Notes under the pieces: model-generated | The model's input: the letters and a program-made list of their open reading frames with translations, nothing else | The model's database searches: none | What the model was told of the DNA's origin: nothing | Shown: positions 8,131 to 19,383 of the stretch, in pieces | Position numbering within the stretch: the stretch's first letter is position 1 | Layout: the number at the start of each line of letters is the position of its first letter | Position numbers and translations under genes: made by a program | From: a virus | Virus record (IMG/VR): IMGVR_UViG_3300006079_000003 | Coordinates: 1-33,866 of that record | DNA: 33,866 nt | Strand: one strand, 5' to 3'

Positions 8131-9189
8131 ATGGCAACACTAGCAGAGATCAGAGCGAAGCTTCTCGCACAAGAAACAAGAACTACATCAACATATTCTT
8201 CAACCGGAGATAACGCGATTTTCGCACACTGGAACATTCCAGAAGGTACAACAACAACTTTAAGATTCCTACCAGACGGTGATGATACTAATACATTCTT
8301 TTGGCGTGAACGTCAGATGATGAGATTTCAATTCCCCGGCGTAAAAGGACAAGATGAGAACAAGCAAGTAACAGTACAAGTACCATGTGTAGAAATGTGG
8401 GGAGATACATGTCCCGTACATGCTGAAATTAGACCATGGTTCAAAGATCCTTCTTTAGAAGATATGGCACGTAAATATTGGAAAAAGCGTAGTTATGTTT
8501 TCCAAGGATACGTAGTTGATTCAGAATTGGTAGAAGATACAAAACCAGAAAACCCAATTCGTAGATTTGTAATTAGTCCACAGATTTATAAGATTATTTC
8601 AGCAGCTTTAATGGATCCAGATTTCCAAGAAATCCCAACAGATTATGAGTTAGGCACTGACTTTAAGGTAACAAAATCTACAAAAGGACAATATGCTGAT
8701 TATTCAACAAGTAATTGGGCAAGACGTGAACGTGGCCTTGATCAACCGGAAAGAGACGCAATTAATACAAATGGTCTATTTACGTTAAATGACTACTTAC
8801 CAAAGAAACCTTCAGCAGAAGAATTAGCCATTATTTACGAAATGTTTGAAGCAAGTGTTGACGGTCAGTTATATGATCCAGAACGTTTTGGTGATTACTA
8901 CCGTCCATACGGTGTAGACGCTCCAGGCAAACGAAATGTAGCGGCATCAGCTGTTACGACTACTACAACAACAGCTACTCCAGTAGCAGCCCCAGCAGTT
9001 GAAGCAGCTCCAGTAGCAGCAGCTCCGGTGGTTGAAGCAGCTCCGGCAGCAGCTCCGGTAGCAGCAGCTCCGGTAGCAGCAGCTCCGGTGGTTGAAGCAG
9101 CTCCGGTAGCAGCTCCAGTAGCGGAGACCTCTGACAAGGCAAGCGCACAGGATATCTTAGCAATGATTCGTCAACGCAAAGAAGCTTAA
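8131..9189 (+). CDS. 32: Single-stranded DNA binding protein gp32
   Basis: It coats single-stranded DNA in replication and recombination and recruits UvsX/UvsY and the replisome. The 352 residues include the N-terminal cooperativity segment, the OB-fold core (LRFLPDGDDTNTFFWRERQ) and a zinc-site-like loop with C86, C94 and H97 (VPCVEMWGDTCPVHAEIR). T4 uses H-C-C-C, so the ligand set here looks altered or a fourth ligand lies elsewhere. Residues 270 to about 335 form a low-complexity Thr then Ala/Pro/Val linker made of near-identical units. The last 20 residues (from SDKASAQDILAM) are helical and not the acidic tail of T4 gp32. A strong AGGAGA site precedes the ATG, and promoters of both classes lie upstream. 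Confidence 0.95.
   Translation: MATLAEIRAKLLAQETRTTSTYSSTGDNAIFAHWNIPEGTTTTLRFLPDGDDTNTFFWRERQMMRFQFPGVKGQDENKQVTVQVPCVEMWGDTCPVHAEIRPWFKDPSLEDMARKYWKKRSYVFQGYVVDSELVEDTKPENPIRRFVISPQIYKIISAALMDPDFQEIPTDYELGTDFKVTKSTKGQYADYSTSNWARRERGLDQPERDAINTNGLFTLNDYLPKKPSAEELAIIYEMFEASVDGQLYDPERFGDYYRPYGVDAPGKRNVAASAVTTTTTTATPVAAPAVEAAPVAAAPVVEAAPAAAPVAAAPVAAAPVVEAAPVAAPVAETSDKASAQDILAMIRQRKEA
8980..9122 (+). repeat. Ala/Pro/Val low-complexity linker repeats in gp32
   Basis: Units built on GCAGCTCCGGT-like DNA encode EAAPVAAAP motifs linking the DNA-binding core to the conserved C-terminal helix. The open frame seen here on the opposite strand is a shadow of this composition. Confidence 0.8.
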
Positions 9190-9197
9190 TATTTAAG

Positions 9198-9225
9198 TTG
9201 GGGAGTAATCCCCAATTATTTTATT
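9198..9225 (+). terminator. Rho-independent terminator between gp32 and uvsX
   Basis: A 6-bp stem TTGGGG (9198-9203) / CCCCAA (9210-9215) with a 6-base loop is followed by a T-rich tail. No separate promoter was found before uvsX, so this probably attenuates rather than ends the transcript. Confidence 0.7.
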
Positions 9226-9238
9226 GTTGTAGGAGGTT

Positions 9239-10324
9239 ATGATGGCACGACCATTTGACGTAAGTAAATTTAGAAAAGGAATAACAAAATCTGTTCCTGG
9301 GCTAAGTGTTGGATTTAATGATCCTGATACCTGGATTTCTACAGGTAATTACACACTAAACAAATTAATTAGTGATGACTTTAATAGAGGAATTCCATTA
9401 GGAAAAGTATCAGTATTGGCTGGAGAGTCAGGCTCTGGTAAATCATTTATTGCCGCAGGTAACATTGTGCGCGAAGCACAAGGTCAAGGTATTTTTGTAG
9501 TATTAATTGACAGTGAAAACGCATTGGATGAAAAATGGCTACATGCTTTAAATGTAGATACTAGTGATGATAAGTTATTAAAACTTAACATGGCTATGAT
9601 TGATGATGTTGCTAAGGTAATTAGTGATTTTATGAAAGCATATAAAGTAGACTATGTTGACATGGATGAAGAAGAAAGACCAAAGGTACTATTTGTGGTT
9701 GATTCTTTAGGAATGTTAATGACACCAACAGATCTCGATCAGTTTAATAGAGGTGATTTGAAGGGTGATATGGGACGTAAACCAAAAGCTCTAACTGCTC
9801 TTGTAAGAAACTGTGTCAATATGTTTGGTGAATATAATGTTGGATTGTTGGCAACAAACCATACATATGCTTCTCAAGATATGTTTGATCCAGATGCTAA
9901 GATTAGTGGAGGACAAGGATTCATCTATGCTTCAAGTATTGTAATTGCGATGCGCAAACTTAAATTGAAAGTAGATGCTGACGGCGTAAAAACTTCAAAG
10001 GTTCATGGAATTAGAGCGGCATGCAAGGTGATGAAAACACGATATGCTAAACCGTTTGAAGATGTACAATTAGAAATTCCATATGAAACTGGTATGAGTC
10101 CATATAGTGGACTTGTTGAGTTTTTTGAAGCAAAAGGCACACTTCAAAAGAAAGGTAATAGGTTAGAGTATACTAGTGTTGTCACTGGTGAAATAATAAT
10201 CCAGTTTAGAAAGGTTTGGGCTAAAAACGAAAACAATTGTTTGGATTTGGTAATGGAAGAATTTGATAAGACTTCAGAGAAATTAGAAGTTGTAACAGAG
10301 ATAGAGGAGACAGTAAATGATTGA
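9239..10324 (+). CDS. uvsX: UvsX recombinase (RecA-like)
   Basis: This is the phage RecA/Rad51 homologue. It forms filaments on single-stranded DNA and performs strand exchange for recombination-dependent replication, with gp32 and UvsY as partners. The 361 residues show Walker A GESGSGKS (62-69), Walker B KVLFVVDSLGML (about 149-160) and the RecA-type loop segment ISGGQGFIYASSIV. Length is close to T4 UvsX. A near-perfect AGGAGGT ribosome site precedes tandem ATGs at 9239 and 9242; either could start. It is separated from gp32 by a terminator hairpin, and its 3' end overlaps the next gene by 8 bases. Confidence 0.95.
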   Translation: MMARPFDVSKFRKGITKSVPGLSVGFNDPDTWISTGNYTLNKLISDDFNRGIPLGKVSVLAGESGSGKSFIAAGNIVREAQGQGIFVVLIDSENALDEKWLHALNVDTSDDKLLKLNMAMIDDVAKVISDFMKAYKVDYVDMDEEERPKVLFVVDSLGMLMTPTDLDQFNRGDLKGDMGRKPKALTALVRNCVNMFGEYNVGLLATNHTYASQDMFDPDAKISGGQGFIYASSIVIAMRKLKLKVDADGVKTSKVHGIRAACKVMKTRYAKPFEDVQLEIPYETGMSPYSGLVEFFEAKGTLQKKGNRLEYTSVVTGEIIIQFRKVWAKNENNCLDLVMEEFDKTSEKLEVVTEIEETVND

Positions 10325-10553
10325 GTGTGATGTAGAATTTTTAGTTGCGATGTATGACTCGTCGGTGACATATATAAAAACAACTGATAGACAAAAGTTT
10401 GCGGGTGATTTTATTGCGATGATATCCGATCATGAAATGGACACTGGTGATATTTATGAAGAATTATCAGACCATGATGGTTATTTAGAAATCGCCATAG
10501 ATAATACTGTAGAAGACGAGTATGACGAAGAAGATGACGACGACGAGTTTTAA
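10317..10553 (+). CDS. Small acidic protein between uvsX and uvsY
   Basis: Unrecognised protein of 78 residues. Its ATG overlaps the end of uvsX by 8 bases, indicating translational coupling. The first 50 residues look like a small alpha/beta domain (EFLVAMYDSSVTYIKTTDRQKF). The last 15 residues are almost all Asp/Glu and end in Phe (DEEDDDDEF). Such acidic tails occur in proteins that mimic DNA or bind gp32-type or clamp partners. Its place inside the UvsX-UvsY pair suggests a recombination accessory, by inference only. Confidence 0.65.
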   Translation: MIECDVEFLVAMYDSSVTYIKTTDRQKFAGDFIAMISDHEMDTGDIYEELSDHDGYLEIAIDNTVEDEYDEEDDDDEF

Positions 10554-10556
10554 TTA

Positions 10557-11015
10557 ATGAGTATATGGTTTAGAAAAGTAGTCAATAATCTCGGTAATAT
10601 TATCGATGCGGTAACTCATTTTGAAAAAGAGATAGCAGAAGCGAGGTTTTCTTGCAGTATGAAAGGAAATTTAGAAAAGCAAAGTTCTGAAATGCCGGGG
10701 ATTGTTGAACACCGATTTAATCAACTTCAGGAAGTAGAAGCAATCCTTGAACATTTAAATATTGAAATGAGAAGAACACGCAGTAAGTTCTTTCGTAAGT
10801 ATTTAGAAAATTATAATAGACAGTTAAGCAGTCGAGACGTTGAAAAATTTGTCGATGGCGAAGAAGAGGTAGTAGCATTGCAGTTGTTGATTAATGAATT
10901 TAGCTTAGTTAGAAATAGATTCATGGGAATAATTAAAGCCTTAGAGGCCAAGCAATTCCAAATCAATAACATAGTGAAATTACGCGCCGCAGGACTTGAA
11001 GATATATCGTTATAA
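10557..11015 (+). CDS. uvsY: UvsY recombination mediator
   Basis: UvsY loads UvsX onto gp32-coated single-stranded DNA. The 152-residue protein is helical and basic. The segment KYLENYNRQLSSRDVEKFVDGE followed by VVALQLLINEFSLVRNRFMGIIKAL matches the core of UvsY in T4-like phages. Length is close to T4 UvsY (137 residues). It starts 3 bases after the small acidic gene and is the last gene of the unit: a strong terminator follows 21 bases after the stop. The order gp32, uvsX, uvsY supports the call. Confidence 0.85.
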   Translation: MSIWFRKVVNNLGNIIDAVTHFEKEIAEARFSCSMKGNLEKQSSEMPGIVEHRFNQLQEVEAILEHLNIEMRRTRSKFFRKYLENYNRQLSSRDVEKFVDGEEEVVALQLLINEFSLVRNRFMGIIKALEAKQFQINNIVKLRAAGLEDISL

Positions 11016-11036
11016 TTAATAAATGATTCACAAATT

Positions 11037-11057
11037 AGGCCGCTTGCGGCCTTTTTT
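11037..11057 (+). terminator. Strong rho-independent terminator after uvsY
   Basis: GC-rich inverted repeat AGGCCGC (11037-11043) / GCGGCCT (11046-11052), forming a tight stem with a CTTG-type loop, followed by six T. It separates the recombination unit from the AAA+/uvsW unit. Confidence 0.9.
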
Positions 11058-11072
11058 GTATGTGACAAATAA

Positions 11073-11126
11073 GTAAGACATCTTGTTAAATATCTGAAAT
11101 AAAAGGTTGACAGGTAAGACGTCTTA
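11073..11126. promoter_or_regulatory. Putative operator pair (AAGACGTCTT palindromes)
   Basis: TAAGACGTCTTA at 11115-11126 is a perfect 12-bp palindrome lying between the -35 and -10 of the promoter. A near copy, TAAGACATCTTG at 11074-11085, lies 41 bp upstream, close to four helical turns. The spacing and position are those of a repressor site with a cooperative partner. The binding protein is unknown. Confidence 0.5.
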
Positions 11127-11135
11127 TGCTATAAT
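11107..11135 (+). promoter_or_regulatory. Consensus sigma70-type promoter of the AAA+ gene
   Basis: Perfect TTGACA (11107-11112), 17-bp spacer and perfect TATAAT (11130-11135). The predicted start near 11142 gives a leader of about 32 nt with an AAGGGG ribosome site before the ATG at 11174. Confidence 0.85.
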
Positions 11136-11173
11136 ATGCATATATTAAATAATAAAGCTAAGGGGCAAAAGAT

Positions 11174-12019
11174 ATGACAACAAAGAGAAAATATAAAACG
11201 AAAAAATCATTAATTGAAACGGTTGATGTACCAAAGAAAAAGTTAGTGGAAACTGACGAGCAAATTGGAGAACGTTTAGCAGAAAGATTTCAAATATTAG
11301 ATGACATGACACAAGCTAGTGTCAACGGTGTTGTTCGTGGCATGGTAGTTACAGGTCCTCCTGGTGTAGGTAAATCATATGGTGTTGAAAAGATATTAGA
11401 TCAAAACAATATGTTTGATAAAATCGCCGGAAATAAATTAAGATATGCGGTTGAGAAAGGAGCAGCATCAGCAGTTGGTTTATATAAATTACTTTATAAC
11501 TATTCAGAGAAGAATAATGTATTAGTACTTGATGATTGTGACACTGTATTATATGATGAAACATCATTAAATTTATTAAAGGCAGCATTGGATTCAGGTA
11601 AGAAGAGACGCATTAGTTGGAATACAGACAGTGCTCTTTTGCGACGTGAAGGCATTCCTGGAAGTTTTGAATTTAAAGGTAGTGTTATTTTTATTACTAA
11701 TCTTAAATTTGATAGTGTCCGTGGCAAATTAAAAGATCACTTGGCGGCGCTTATGTCAAGATGTCACTATTTAGATTTAACTCTTGACACTGTTCGTGAA
11801 AAACTTATTCGTTGTAGACAAATTGTAGATGCGGGTATGTTGGAAGAGTACGGATTTACAAAGGAAGAAGAATATGAAGTTTTGAATTATGTTATTGATA
11901 ACCAAACTCGCATGCGTGAGATTAGTTTAAGAATGATAACCAAGGTTGCTGATCTTAAGCAAAGTATGCCAGAAAAATGGGAACGCATGGTAGAGTGTAC
12001 GTGTATGAAGCGAGTATAA
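11174..12019 (+). CDS. AAA+ ATPase of unknown role
   Basis: A 281-residue P-loop ATPase. A basic N-terminal tail (KRKYKTKK) precedes the AAA core with Walker A GPPGVGKS (61-68), Walker B VLVLDDCD (116-123), a sensor-1-like stretch VIFITNLKF and a C-terminal helical lid. It lacks the features I would expect of clamp loader gp44, and its Walker B is D-D-C-D rather than D-E-x-x. Proteins of this kind occur in marine T4-like phages, to my memory without an assigned function. It is the first gene behind a consensus promoter with a putative operator and is followed by uvsW, suggesting an early replication or host-takeover role. An ATPase is clear; its substrate is not. Confidence 0.8.
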   Translation: MTTKRKYKTKKSLIETVDVPKKKLVETDEQIGERLAERFQILDDMTQASVNGVVRGMVVTGPPGVGKSYGVEKILDQNNMFDKIAGNKLRYAVEKGAASAVGLYKLLYNYSEKNNVLVLDDCDTVLYDETSLNLLKAALDSGKKRRISWNTDSALLRREGIPGSFEFKGSVIFITNLKFDSVRGKLKDHLAALMSRCHYLDLTLDTVREKLIRCRQIVDAGMLEEYGFTKEEEYEVLNYVIDNQTRMREISLRMITKVADLKQSMPEKWERMVECTCMKRV

Positions 12020-12036
12020 AAAAAGTAGGTATTATA

Positions 12037-12065
12037 TTGACAAACCACACGTTATCAAGTATAAT
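12037..12065 (+). promoter_or_regulatory. Consensus promoter placing +1 on the uvsW ATG
   Basis: Perfect TTGACA (12037-12042), 17-bp spacer, perfect TATAAT (12060-12065). The uvsW ATG begins after exactly 6 more bases, at the usual +1 position. No ribosome binding site precedes it. Confidence 0.8.
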
Positions 12066-12071
12066 TGTAAT

Positions 12072-13520
12072 ATGAATTGCACTATAACATTAAAAGACGA
12101 AGTCAATTGTAAAATTGAAGGGGTTGGATTAACTACTCGCAGAAAGTTAGAAAACGAAGTAAAGTTTTTCTTACCACATGCGTTTCATGTTCCATCTTAT
12201 AAGTTAGGAAGATGGGACGGATGTGTCAGGTATTGTACTGTTGGCGGAGTCACATATATTAGTTTATTAGATCGACTTTTGCCAATACTTATTGAGGATG
12301 GATATTCTATTGAGGTAGATGATAGAAGAGACCAACATCAATTCGAATTTACTGCGGTTGATGAGGAAACATTTGCTCACAAGTCCTGGCCAGCAGGCCA
12401 CGTAGTAGAAGGGCAACCTGTAGTCTTGCGAGATTACCAGATTTCCATTGTAAATAAGTTCTTAGAAAATCCACAATGTATTCAAGAAATTGCTACGGGT
12501 GCTGGTAAGACATTAGTCACAGCCGCATTGAGTAATACTGTTGAACAGTACGGCAGAAGTATTGTAATAGTACCAAACAAGGACCTTGTACGTCAGACGT
12601 ATGAAGATTATTTGAATCTCGGGTTAGATGTTGGTGTTTATTATGGTGACAAAAAAGAACTAGGAAAAACCCACACCATTTGTACATGGCAGAGTCTTAA
12701 TAGTATTAAGAAGCGATTTAAAGAAGCTAAGAGTGATATGAGCTTGCGAGAGTTTGCTGAAGATGTTGTATGTGTTATTGTCGATGAGGTACACCAAGCA
12801 AAGGCTGATGTGCTAAAGGATATATTAACTAAAGATTTCTCAAATGTACCTCTTCGTTGGGGATTAACTGGAACTATTCCAAAAGCAGATCATGAAAAGA
12901 TAGGATTGCATGTAAGTCTCGGTGATGTAGTTAATAAGTTAGCGGCAAGTGAGTTACAAGATATGGGCGTGTTGTCCAATTGTCATGTTAATATTGTACA
13001 GTTAAAGGAAACGGCGATATATGCTAATTATCAAAGCGAGTTAAGTTATTTAACGACAGATGATAAGAGGATAGATTATATTAGCGGACTAATTGATTCT
13101 ATATCTGACTCTGGCAATACATTGGTACTTGTTGATAGAATTAAAGCAGGTCAAAAGATTGTTGAAAATATCGAAAAGGCAGTGTTTGTTAGCGGTATAA
13201 CAAAAGCAGCAGATAGGAAAGAACAGTATGATGATATTAATACTGGCACTAACAATGTTTTAGTAGCAACATATGGGGTAGCGTCAGTTGGTATTAATAT
13301 TCCACGTATATTTAATCTTGTTTTATTGGAACCAGGAAAGAGCTTTGTACGAGTTATACAGAGTATTGGTAGAGGTGTTAGAAAGGCAAACGATAAAGAA
13401 CACGTTGAAATATGGGATATAGCAAGTACAGCCAAATATAGTAAGAAACATTTAACAGAAAGAAAACGGTTTTATAAAGAAGCCAATTATCCATTTACAT
13501 TAGAAAAGGTAGATTATTAG
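12072..13520 (+). CDS. uvsW: UvsW helicase
   Basis: A superfamily 2 helicase that in T4 unwinds R-loops and branched DNA and switches replication from origin to recombination mode. The 482 residues start with the UvsW N-terminal domain (the YKLGRWDGCVRY segment). Walker A ATGAGKT (141-147), the DEVH box (238-241), a GLTGTIP motif (about 268-274) and the motif VI region QSIGRGVRK follow. Length is near T4 UvsW. The ATG lies 6 bases after a perfect -10 hexamer and has no ribosome site, so the mRNA from this promoter should be leaderless. Readthrough from the AAA+ gene would give a leadered form. The next gene begins 1 base after the stop. Confidence 0.92.
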   Translation: MNCTITLKDEVNCKIEGVGLTTRRKLENEVKFFLPHAFHVPSYKLGRWDGCVRYCTVGGVTYISLLDRLLPILIEDGYSIEVDDRRDQHQFEFTAVDEETFAHKSWPAGHVVEGQPVVLRDYQISIVNKFLENPQCIQEIATGAGKTLVTAALSNTVEQYGRSIVIVPNKDLVRQTYEDYLNLGLDVGVYYGDKKELGKTHTICTWQSLNSIKKRFKEAKSDMSLREFAEDVVCVIVDEVHQAKADVLKDILTKDFSNVPLRWGLTGTIPKADHEKIGLHVSLGDVVNKLAASELQDMGVLSNCHVNIVQLKETAIYANYQSELSYLTTDDKRIDYISGLIDSISDSGNTLVLVDRIKAGQKIVENIEKAVFVSGITKAADRKEQYDDINTGTNNVLVATYGVASVGINIPRIFNLVLLEPGKSFVRVIQSIGRGVRKANDKEHVEIWDIASTAKYSKKHLTERKRFYKEANYPFTLEKVDY

Positions 13521-14478: not shown

Positions 14479-15153
14479 ATGCTATTTAAATGCGAGTATT
14501 GTAAAAAACAGTTTAAGCGAGAAAATACTCTGGTAGTACATATGTGTCAAAAAAAGAGACGGCATATGGAAAAGGATGAACCAAATATTAGGTTAGGATT
14601 TCGTACATATCAGTTATTTTATAAATTAGGCACAGCCGCAAAAAATGCAAAATCATATGATGATTTTGTTAATAGTCAGTATTATATGGCGTTTGTTAAG
14701 TTTGGAAAATATTGCCTTGATTTAAAAATTAATGATGTTGAAGGATACGCAACATGGTTGATTAAAAATGGAACACGGTTAGATGATTGGACAAGTGATA
14801 GGGTATTTAATAAATGGATTAAGACTCGTCTAAAAGATGAGACACCAGAACGTGCGGTTGAAAGAACAATTTTATTTATGACAGCTTGGGCTGAGGAAAC
14901 AGATAACAATTGGGTTGACTATTTTGATAAAGTACCAACAAACCTAATAGTATTTCATATATGTAGCGGAAAGATATCACCGTGGGTAATATATTCAAGC
15001 AATAAGGCACAGAATCTAATAGATAAGATGAATGACGAACAACTTAAACTGATTTCAGACTATATAGATCCACAATTTTGGCAAGTACGCCTTGCTCGAA
15101 AAGCAGCAGATTTTAATTGGACCAAACAAATAGTAACACAGGCAGGATTTTAA
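14479..15153 (+). CDS. Zinc-finger protein of unknown function
   Basis: The 224-residue protein opens with a zinc-finger-like motif: C5 and C8 in FKCEYCKKQFKRENTLVVHMC with H21 and C23, a C2HC variant of a C2H2 finger. The remaining 190 residues are a helical domain with SQYYMAFVKFGKYC, GTRLDDW and KISPWVIYSS. I remember a similar conserved protein in marine T4-like phages without assigned function. Its stop overlaps the ATG of the DnaE-like gene by one base (TAATG), so the two are translationally coupled and may act together on DNA. DNA or RNA binding is inferred from the finger. Confidence 0.65.
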   Translation: MLFKCEYCKKQFKRENTLVVHMCQKKRRHMEKDEPNIRLGFRTYQLFYKLGTAAKNAKSYDDFVNSQYYMAFVKFGKYCLDLKINDVEGYATWLIKNGTRLDDWTSDRVFNKWIKTRLKDETPERAVERTILFMTAWAEETDNNWVDYFDKVPTNLIVFHICSGKISPWVIYSSNKAQNLIDKMNDEQLKLISDYIDPQFWQVRLARKAADFNWTKQIVTQAGF

Positions 15154-15737
15154 TGATAGTAAATACTGATGTTGATATCGACATTGCTGATCGTAGTAAG
15201 ATATTAAAGATAATCAAACATACGCCAGCAATGATTTCGGATAAGAAAGGACAGAGGAAACATAATACTGGAGTATATTTTCATGAAATGCCAGAGAATC
15301 CTTTTACTGGCATTTCAACTATTGATCATAAAGAAGCAGAAGTAAAAGGATTCTTTAAAATAGATTTGTTGAATGTGAATATTTATGAAGGTATAAAATC
15401 ACAAGATGAATTAGAACAGCTTATTGAAGTTGAACCGAATTGGGAGTTATTAAACCATTCGGATATCGTAAAGAAGCTATTTCATATTCATGGGCATTTT
15501 GATATTGTTAGCAAGTTAACACCTACCTCGGTTGAACAGCTTGCGGCGGTCCTTGCTATTATTAGACCAGCGAAACGCTATTTACTTGACAAAGATTGGA
15601 ATACTATTATGTCTGAAGTTTGGAAGAAACCAAAGAATGATGAATACTTTTTCAAACAAGCACATGCTATAGCGTATTCTATGGCGATTGTATTACAAAT
15701 GAATATGTTGGTTAGAGATTATTCTTTAGTAGATTAA
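15153..15737 (+). CDS. Miniature DnaE-like (C-family polymerase motif) protein
   Basis: At 194 residues this protein carries, in DnaE order, motifs that resemble bacterial Pol III alpha. They are DVDIDIADR (residues 6-14; DnaE palm PDxDxDF), GFFKIDLLNVNIYEGI (66-81; DnaE GLVKFDFLGL, with the third catalytic Asp matching D71), a KLTPTSVEQLAAVLAIIRPAKR stretch (121-142; LKP..FEDLVAL.ALYRPGP) and FFKQAHAIAYSM (166-177; FNKSHAAAYAL). The PHP, thumb, clamp-binding and most finger sequences are absent. DnaE is about six times longer. I recall related small proteins in cyanophages. Activity is doubtful; a relic, DNA-binding factor or polymerase partner is possible. The start at 15153 is set by coupling to the upstream stop; an upstream in-frame start at 15117 would overlap that gene. 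Confidence 0.65.
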   Translation: MIVNTDVDIDIADRSKILKIIKHTPAMISDKKGQRKHNTGVYFHEMPENPFTGISTIDHKEAEVKGFFKIDLLNVNIYEGIKSQDELEQLIEVEPNWELLNHSDIVKKLFHIHGHFDIVSKLTPTSVEQLAAVLAIIRPAKRYLLDKDWNTIMSEVWKKPKNDEYFFKQAHAIAYSMAIVLQMNMLVRDYSLVD

Positions 15738-16083
15738 TAGAACGACGCTTGATGCGTTTTGTGATCTGGTCGTTAAGTTTTACTTCTGGTCCTGCGACTA
15801 TTGTCATTTGTTTTACACTAAAACTTTGACACGTATATGTAAATGGCCAACGATTGATTAATGCTATATTAATTGGTAATTTTCGATTAGTCTCCCACCA
15901 CCATTCTTCACCAAGTGATAAGAATAATTTTCGATCTTCAGCATCATGAATTCGATCATAGGCATATAAGCTTGCTATATGGCTGTCGATATTTTGAATG
16001 ATTCCAATATACTCATTGTCGGCATAACCGACAATCGTTAAGAATGGAAATTTATCTAACATAGTTAAGTGAAGGTCGCGCAT
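15712..16083 (-). CDS. Lone minus-strand conserved phage protein
   Basis: A 123-residue protein that is the only convincing minus-strand gene. It fills an otherwise empty 420-base interval, overlaps the convergent DnaE-like gene by 26 bases and has a composition unlike shadow frames. The sequence (HLTMLDKFPFLTIVGYADNEYIGIIQN, then LGEEWWWETNRKLPINIALI) is beta-rich and resembles, from memory, a small conserved protein of marine T4-like phages without known function. The C-terminus is basic. A minus-strand AATAAATA box (16090-16097) ends 6 bases before its ATG and no ribosome site is visible, so its late transcript would be leaderless or nearly so. Confidence 0.65.
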   Translation of the reverse strand: MRDLHLTMLDKFPFLTIVGYADNEYIGIIQNIDSHIASLYAYDRIHDAEDRKLFLSLGEEWWWETNRKLPINIALINRWPFTYTCQSFSVKQMTIVAGPEVKLNDQITKRIKRRSINLLKNNL

Positions 16084-16990: not shown

Positions 16991-18001
16991 ATGTCCTTAT
17001 TAATTGATTACACGAAAAGTCTGATACCTGTGAACTGGAAGTCAAGCCCAAGCGGTTGGATTTCTGGTAACTGTCCGATGTGCGTAGTTAATGGAGAAGG
17101 ACGACCAGATACAAAGGGTAGAGGTGGATTTCACATTGACGGTGATAAATTACAATATAATTGTTTTAATTGTGGATATAAAGCCGGATGGTCAACTGGT
17201 AGCAAGTTAACCAGAAACATGAAAAAACTGTTAATGAGATTAGGAGCAGATGAGGCATCAATACAGCGTATTCAGCTAAACTTGCTACAGGATAGTAGTA
17301 TATCAGATTTATTACCAACAAAGAAGAAAGAAGCAGTTAAGTTAGAATGGCCTGAAATGCAATTACCACCCGATACTCAAGTGATTTGCAAATATGATGA
17401 TATACCACCACCCAAGTTTTTAGATATATGCAATTATATTAACGGCAGAGGATTTAATTTAGACAATAGTATTTTTATGTATTCGCCAAGTACAATGCCG
17501 GCAAGGATGAAAAATAGATTTATAATACCGTTTACATATAAAGGAAAGATAGTAGGATATACAGCACGTTGGGCAGGTCCGCCACCCAAAGGTATACCAA
17601 AATACTACACCCAACAACCCAAGCGTAATTTTGTTTTTGGGTTAGATCAACAAACAAAAAATAAACAGGTCGTAATAGTGACAGAAGGACAATTAGATGC
17701 TATAATAACAGATGGTGTCGCAATTGGGAGTAATAATTGTAATAGTGAACAGGCTGATATCATAGATAGCCTAAATAAGTCAATTATAGTTGTTCCTGAT
17801 AAGGACCCGGCAAGTATTTCATTAGTAAGTACTGCTGTAGACAGAGGTTGGAAAGTTTCGTTTCCTGAATGGACAGATTGTAAAGATGTTGGAGATGCTG
17901 TAATGAAATACGGTAGATTAGCAACTATACAAAGTATATTAACAAACGCCATAGATAATCGAGTAAAGATTCAAGTTATGGCAAAAAAATATTGTAGGTA
18001 G
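16991..18001 (+). CDS. 61: DNA primase gp61
   Basis: It makes RNA primers for the lagging strand and works as a primosome with gp41. The 336 residues show an N-terminal zinc ribbon (C28, C31, C58, C61; CPMC and CFNC), a middle domain, and a TOPRIM core with TEGQLDA (231-237) and the acidic pair in VVPDKD (about 267-272). Length is close to T4 gp61 (342). The ATG is 6 bases after a -10 hexamer and no well-spaced ribosome site precedes it, so a leaderless message is likely. The helicase gene follows after 5 bases. Confidence 0.93.
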   Translation: MSLLIDYTKSLIPVNWKSSPSGWISGNCPMCVVNGEGRPDTKGRGGFHIDGDKLQYNCFNCGYKAGWSTGSKLTRNMKKLLMRLGADEASIQRIQLNLLQDSSISDLLPTKKKEAVKLEWPEMQLPPDTQVICKYDDIPPPKFLDICNYINGRGFNLDNSIFMYSPSTMPARMKNRFIIPFTYKGKIVGYTARWAGPPPKGIPKYYTQQPKRNFVFGLDQQTKNKQVVIVTEGQLDAIITDGVAIGSNNCNSEQADIIDSLNKSIIVVPDKDPASISLVSTAVDRGWKVSFPEWTDCKDVGDAVMKYGRLATIQSILTNAIDNRVKIQVMAKKYCR

Positions 18002-18006
18002 AAAAT

Positions 18007-19383
18007 ATGAATGAGTACTCTTTAGATTTGCAGAAAATATTTGTAGAATTTTTATCACATGATCATGAATCGTTTGTTCGAGTAAACGGTATTTTGGATA
18101 GTATGTTCTTTGATCGATCATTGCGTTCGACGATAGAATTCATACAAGAACACGCTTCTGAATATGGAGCAGTACCAACACCAGCACAAATCAAGGCAAA
18201 AACTGGCATACAGTTAGAAGGACTTGAAAGTATAGATGAACGCCACCAAAACTGGTTTATTGATGAATTTGAACAGTTTGCTAAACATAAAGCGTTAGAG
18301 GCTGCGATATTGTCAAGTGCTGATTTGTTAGAAAAGAATGAGTACGGCGCCGTTGAAAAGTTAATTAAGGATGCGGTACAAATTGGCCTAGCGAAGGATA
18401 TGGGAACCGATTATTGGGAGTCACCAGCAGAGCGTATAGAGCGAGTTAGAAATAATAGAGGCGGTGTGAGTACTGGTTGGAAAGATGTAGACAGTAAGTT
18501 ATTCGGTGGATTTAATAGAGGCGAGCTAAACATATTTGCAGCCGCATCAGGTGGTGGTAAAAGTTTATTCTTACAGAATTTAGCATTAAATTGGGCATTG
18601 GCTGGTTTGAATGTAGTGTATGTTAGTTTAGAATTATCTGAAGAGTTATGTAGTTTGCGATTGGATAGTATGTTAACTGGTTATAGTACTACGGATGTAT
18701 TTAAGAATGCGAGCGATGTAGATTTGAAGGTTAGAATGCAAGCAAAAGGGTCAGGAGCATTACAAATTGTACAATTGAGGAATGGTATTACGGTTAATGA
18801 TTTGACAAGTTATGTTAAAGAGCTTGAAGTTAAATCTAACACGAAGATAGATGCAATATTAGTTGATTATTTAGACTTAATGATGCCAGCACAACGTAAA
18901 GTACCACCAAGTGATTTGTTTATTAAGGATAAGTTTGTATCTGAAGAATTAAGAAACTTTGCTATTGATCATGATATATTATTAGCTACAGCATCACAGT
19001 TGAATAGAGGAGCAGTTGAAGAGATAGAGTTTGATCACAGCCACATTAGTGGTGGCCTCAGTAAAATTCAAACAGCAGATAATGTAATTGGTATTTTCAC
19101 AAGTCAAGCAATGCGTGAACACGGAAAATATCAAGTACAATTTATGAAGACACGAAGTAGTAGTGGCGTAGGGCATAAAGTTGAATTAGCATTTGACATT
19201 GCTGGCTTACGTATCACTGATATGGATCCAGAAGAAGCGTCTACAGTGAATACAAACATGTTTCAAAACTTAAAGAAGAAAACATCAGTAATCCCACCGA
19301 AAAATACACAGACGGCTGGTGAGTTACAAAATACTATCATGGCCACTGATAGATTGCGATCAATACTCAAAAAGCAAGATTAA
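18007..19383 (+). CDS. 41: Replicative helicase gp41 (DnaB-like)
   Basis: Hexameric 5'-3' helicase of the phage replisome. The 458 residues have a helical N-terminal domain (about 1-135) and a RecA-like motor with Walker A AASGGGKS (179-186), an LELSEELC segment after it and Walker B IDAILVDYLDLM (about 281-292). Near the end of the motor are SQLNRGAVEE and HISGGLSKIQTADNVIGI, typical of DnaB-family helicases. Length is close to T4 gp41 (475). It is co-transcribed with primase gp61, 5 bases upstream, which is its known partner. Confidence 0.93.
   Translation: MNEYSLDLQKIFVEFLSHDHESFVRVNGILDSMFFDRSLRSTIEFIQEHASEYGAVPTPAQIKAKTGIQLEGLESIDERHQNWFIDEFEQFAKHKALEAAILSSADLLEKNEYGAVEKLIKDAVQIGLAKDMGTDYWESPAERIERVRNNRGGVSTGWKDVDSKLFGGFNRGELNIFAAASGGGKSLFLQNLALNWALAGLNVVYVSLELSEELCSLRLDSMLTGYSTTDVFKNASDVDLKVRMQAKGSGALQIVQLRNGITVNDLTSYVKELEVKSNTKIDAILVDYLDLMMPAQRKVPPSDLFIKDKFVSEELRNFAIDHDILLATASQLNRGAVEEIEFDHSHISGGLSKIQTADNVIGIFTSQAMREHGKYQVQFMKTRSSSGVGHKVELAFDIAGLRITDMDPEEASTVNTNMFQNLKKKTSVIPPKNTQTAGELQNTIMATDRLRSILKKQD

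Follow-up and report, generated by a model that had tools for sequence, protein, structure and literature searches.

The gene at positions 15153–15737 of the window, a 33,866-base (34-kb) fragment of an uncultured virus that makes up its whole record, encodes the C-terminal half (C-half) of a split DNA polymerase III alpha (Pol III alpha) without PHP and thumb domains. Its product is probably one of the two chains of a C-family DNA polymerase, with an accessory role beside a family-B replicase. In PHROGs it belongs to phrog_11778, annotated “DNA polymerase” (E 7.8e-65). A split, minimal Pol III alpha has already been described, as a prediction, in group 2.2 jumbo phages (Iyer et al., 2021, Viruses 13:63, PMC7824862); this is the only paper found describing the pair, and it gives no biochemistry. 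As with the group 2.2 enzyme (phrog_11778 plus phrog_11127), the C-terminal Mg2+/template-binding part has a small gene of its own, and the relatives of the window carry both a distant gene for the N-terminal, NTP-binding part (N-half) and a family-B polymerase in the same genomes. Unlike the group 2.2 phages, the window is an uncultured 34-kb fragment, its C-half reaches at most 49% identity to the nearest named phages among the matches listed, and the N-half was not captured. We regard the window protein as a new, distant member of a known split polymerase, of an apparently untested kind; no biochemical or experimental study of the pair was found in the literature searched, with subscription papers and preprints outside its scope.

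The open reading frame (ORF), which codes for 194 residues, is real: its ATG at 15153 overlaps, in the string TAATG, the TAA that ends the gene before it. An ORF resembling this upstream gene also precedes the C-half in contig L074, and the convergent overlap at the 3′ end is repeated in most relatives. The window carries a T4-like replication block in which the C-half is flanked by recombination genes on one side and by primase and DnaB-type helicase genes, then NrdA/NrdB, on the other; the relatives show a similar gene order, with the C-half between the UvsW helicase and the primase/DnaB helicase genes. No polymerase match was obtained among the other ORFs scanned in the window. The features are given below, with the matching residues of E. 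coli MG1655 DnaE.

8131–13520, plus strand: upstream replication/recombination block of gp32-type SSB, UvsX, UvsY, phrog_1250 and UvsW-type helicase, in similar order in relatives
14479–15153, plus strand: upstream gene (phrog_11058) with a C2H2-like N-terminus bearing a CxxC motif, its stop overlapping the C-half ATG
15153–15737, plus strand: C-half of the split DNA polymerase III alpha (phrog_11778), without PHP or thumb, 194 aa
15168–15182, plus strand: DVDID, matching the DnaE PDFDVDF motif, with D6/D8/D10 at D401/D403/D405 and invariant in 99/99 homologues
15258–15272, plus strand: KHNTG, matching DnaE KHAGG (510–514), with K36-H37..G40 at K510-H511..G514
15357–15371, plus strand: KIDLL, matching DnaE KFDFL (553–557), with K69/D71 at K553/D555
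15519–15572, plus strand: fingers stretch ending in IIRPA, matching DnaE LQPDCFEDMIALVALFRPG, with R138-P139 at R639-P640
15648–15680, plus strand: FFKQAHAIAYS, matching DnaE GFNKSHSAAYA, with H171 at H760
15712–16083, minus strand: convergent gene (phrog_11637) overlapping the C-half 3′ end
16991–18001, plus strand: DNA primase (phrog_47), a downstream neighbour conserved by synteny in relatives
18007–19383, plus strand: DnaB-like replicative helicase (phrog_19), likewise conserved downstream by synteny in relatives

The four DnaE motifs named in the original prediction were all found at their places and in DnaE order, and KHxxG is a fifth that it had missed. Its further claim, that all three acidic positions are retained, also stood: the catalytic triad of the C-half consists of D6, D8 and D71, which align with D401, D403 and D555 of E. 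coli. The DxDxD run holds three Asp, of which D6 and D8 correspond to catalytic residues and D10 to D405. Thirteen positions (D6, D8, D10, H37, G40, K69, D71, P124, R138, P139, K141, H171 and Y175) are invariant in 99/99 C-half homologues. The window protein has Q169 at a site occupied by K in at least 90% of its relatives.

What surrounds these motifs has been cut down severely. About 27 residues separate DxDxD from KHxxG, versus about 106 in DnaE, so that some 79 are missing; the gap between D10 and H37 roughly equals in length the thumb of E. coli DnaE (residues 433–510). The fingers region spans about 120 residues versus about 220. Only five residues precede DxDxD, which leaves this chain without a PHP domain and without the initial palm segment that carries GRGS; at the other end it stops at about E. 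coli residue 781, with no OB/tau-binding C-terminus. With a thumb-sized gap and this early end, the 194-residue protein does lack the PHP, thumb and clamp-binding parts, as the original prediction had stated.

A Pfam search with the single C-half sequence gave no DnaE match, and therefore the likeness to DnaE is remote. The same search gave a sub-threshold match to Imm26 (E 0.014, below cut-off), which was judged spurious. When family profiles were compared with 177,635 PDB sequences at E ≤ 10, 8 of 9 matches of profile A1 and 7 of 7 of profile A3 were Pol III alpha, with the motifs in order. Each match by itself is weak (E 0.035 at best), and the evidence lies in how selective the list is, nearly every entry being Pol III alpha. 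Aligned by hhalign with E. coli DnaE alone, the family gave E 8e-4 over 508–642. It is the fold that decides the matter. A model built with AlphaFold2 from 80 window and viral-contig sequences (mean pLDDT 90) was superposed with VIA-align on 13 Pol III alpha/PolC chains, where 179–191 of its 194 residues aligned at Z 6.0–9.6 (184–191 on the best Pol III alpha chains), covering E. coli residues 397/399–781. All other folds reached Z 3.5 or less, and Foldseek ranks agree; the FosB/glyoxalase and METTL15 folds gave partial, weak matches within that range and were set aside. DnaE profile matches and a Pol III alpha palm/fingers fold were thus both obtained in the checks that the original prediction had proposed, and together with the motif order they confirm its central observation, a C-family relative whose likeness to DnaE goes beyond chance.

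The idea of a self-contained miniature, on the other hand, had to be given up, as the C-half is the C-terminal part of a two-gene polymerase whose N-half has a separate, distant gene in related genomes. When 16 related genomes and contigs were searched with Pfam PF07733, the C-half went unreported, save for a 10-bit partial match in one (G003), but 14 contained a second short gene at another locus. This gene, phrog_11127, encodes about 175 residues, among which R100, E104 and GRGS are invariant in 95/95 sequences; the GRGS nucleotide-binding motif, absent from the window protein, is thus borne by a separate chain in the relatives. The N-half profile matched nine PDB sequences, all of them Pol III alpha, hhalign gave E 3e-9 against E. 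coli DnaE over 203–393, and the predicted N-half structure (pLDDT 89) superposes on E. coli 279–395 at Z 10–12. The N-half nearly always ends with E-F-[LI]-x, which corresponds to DnaE FERFLN (388–393), with no residue left in 81 of 95 sequences, and its stop falls just before the start of the DnaE homology in the window protein; most C-half ORFs have their Met 1–5 residues before DxDxD. With the N-half covering 279–395 and the C-half 397/399–781, the two therefore tile DnaE as one palm plus fingers, broken at 395/397. None of the 99 C-half and 95 N-half ORFs examined is a fusion of the two. The gp44-type clamp loader gene follows the N-half gene at a distance of about 1 kb in GAP32 and Paride. 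In one 117-kb contig (L208) the N-half occurs twice, once on each strand and with equal scores (G021:22499-23005 and 94662-95168), which may reflect a palindromic assembly or an inverted repeat.

Relatives of the C-half occur in 63 phage records, with 32–49% identity among the matches listed, and in at least 593 IMG/VR stretches. Carriers include the jumbo phages PA5oct, Paride, Atu_ph07, Phosso, XacN1, SCTP-2, RaK2, PBECO4 and GAP32, as well as two 141-kb Alishewanella phages. Both halves were present in 13/13 named phages first searched, in Stenotrophomonas phages RAS14 and CM1 (about 14 kb apart), and in 5/5 tested virus contigs larger than 228 kb. Alishewanella phage Slicko01 (L014/L020, 141 kb), well below jumbo size, also has both, so the split enzyme reaches beyond jumbo phages. 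The N-half was not found in the 34-kb window with two profiles and Pfam PF07733, nor in its closest large relative (G004/L051), a 221-kb linear fragment in which the C-half and a family-B polymerase are present. Across 99 close C-half pairs the median dN/dS is 0.066, a value that indicates purifying selection on the coding sequence. That the lineage is T4-like with a B-family polymerase, as had been supposed, agrees with the genomes: a family-B gene occurs in the named phages that were searched and also in large relatives, G004 and G001 among them, and its motifs A and C are intact where read whole, in most genomes. In several genomes this polymerase is split into two ORFs (L046, Atu_ph07; L040, Slicko01; G014:197657-200284).

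In the enzyme that we propose, the C-half would supply the acidic triad of a Pol-beta-like palm together with the shortened fingers, and phrog_11127 would supply the first part of the palm, including GRGS, which holds the phosphates of the incoming nucleotide. A single active site would arise only on binding of the two chains, and the assembled product would be without PHP and thumb, with neither chain bearing clamp-binding, tau-binding or OB parts. Its role would most likely be that of an accessory polymerase next to the family-B replicase, either in repair or at the phage fork, for the synthesis of short primers or of the lagging strand. This reading is backed by the homology and fold, the invariant triad, halves that complement each other and co-occur in relatives, purifying selection and the replisome genes nearby; on it, the phage from which the window derives would also encode an N-half, and the pair would assemble and carry out DNA-templated synthesis. 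Two points speak against a two-chain polymerase: the N-half is missing from the window and from the 221-kb contig of the closest large relative, both of them fragments, and a thumb-less enzyme would grip DNA poorly and have low processivity, unless another protein helps.

The same deletions bear on a different reading, in which the halves assemble into a nucleotidyltransferase other than a templated DNA polymerase, for example an end-adding or modification enzyme. Pol-beta-like palms are used in many nucleotidyl-transfer reactions, which speaks for it, as do the thumb-sized loss of about 79 residues and the cut of the fingers from about 220 to about 120. But the C-family fingers motifs (IRP, FKKSH) are among the most conserved residues, and the neighbours are primase, helicase and clamp loader genes; we consider this reading rather unlikely. 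There is also a small chance that the C-half of the window clade has lost its N-half and been reused with another partner, be it a single-chain DnaE-like protein such as marine phage contigs encode, the family-B polymerase or host Pol III alpha.

The original prediction had raised, among its options, a mimic of host Pol III alpha and a relic, and both are disfavoured on present evidence. A non-catalytic mimic or inhibitor, with a structural or regulatory role in binding primer ends, the phage replicase or host Pol III alpha, would fit the small size of the protein, its lack of the GRGS half of the active site and the missing N-half in the 221-kb fragment, the nearest large contig. The acidic positions and K69, however, are invariant in 99/99 homologues and would not be needed by a pure mimic, and the co-occurring N-half keeps its nucleotide-binding motif, which leaves such a factor quite improbable. 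Decay of a captured host dnaE would account for the missing domains, yet hardly for catalytic residues held invariant in 99/99 sequences under a dN/dS of 0.066, for size and motifs alike in 99 homologues, or for a conserved gene order, and we give this origin next to no weight. The two-chain polymerase remains the reading that we prefer.

In genome papers of earlier date, one of the halves appears as a Pol III alpha described as truncated or predicted (PMC5259590; PMC6102473). Phage CBB, for instance, was given a “truncated Pol III alpha” of 172 aa (PMC5259590), which we take to be the N-half because a CBB gene annotated “DNA polymerase III alpha” contains an N-half match with 97% coverage. 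This analysis adds the position of the split to the residue, models whose folds together tile DnaE, the loss of a thumb-sized segment, a census in which fusions are absent, evidence of purifying selection and carriers smaller than jumbo phages. If the chains work together, a replicative-type active site would be distributed across two genes, with the triphosphate-binding motif in one and the metal-binding acids in the other. Such an enzyme would rank with the most compact C-family polymerase cores and offer a natural way to ask what the PHP and thumb domains do. The retention of bacterial-type polymerase fragments, annotated as “truncated,” in phages that have a complete family-B replicase would be explained as well. 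The C-half gene is carried by hundreds of phage contigs.

Compared with bacterial DnaE/PolC, the pair shares the palm/fingers fold, the motif order and the catalytic triad, but is made of about 194 plus 175 residues in two chains rather than 1,160 in one, and the PHP, thumb and OB/tau-binding parts are absent. In cyanobacteria, split-intein DnaE is likewise encoded in two genes. The phage halves differ from it in their split point and in keeping the core only; since the N-half stops at the FLN motif and the C-half starts just before DxDxD, there is no room for an intein at either terminus.

Five long single-chain phage ORFs that were considered as natural fusions of the halves are instead a different single-chain DnaE. 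Marine phage contigs L070, L074, L086, L098 and L110 encode a single-chain, PHP-less DnaE of about 566 aa (L074:16085-17809; L110:15127-16818). It resembles the split pair in being a short PHP-less C-family core, and is encoded about 5 kb downstream of the C-half gene; unlike the pair, it is a single chain in which PF07733 and PF17657 are nearly complete, and its gene is a separate neighbour of the C-half gene, not a fusion of the halves. An endonuclease-III-like ORF (L074:15382-16065) lies beside it, and soon after the replication genes of the same contig come ORFs resembling a branched-chain amino acid/urea ABC transporter, with substrate-binding protein and permease (L074:17989-20169).
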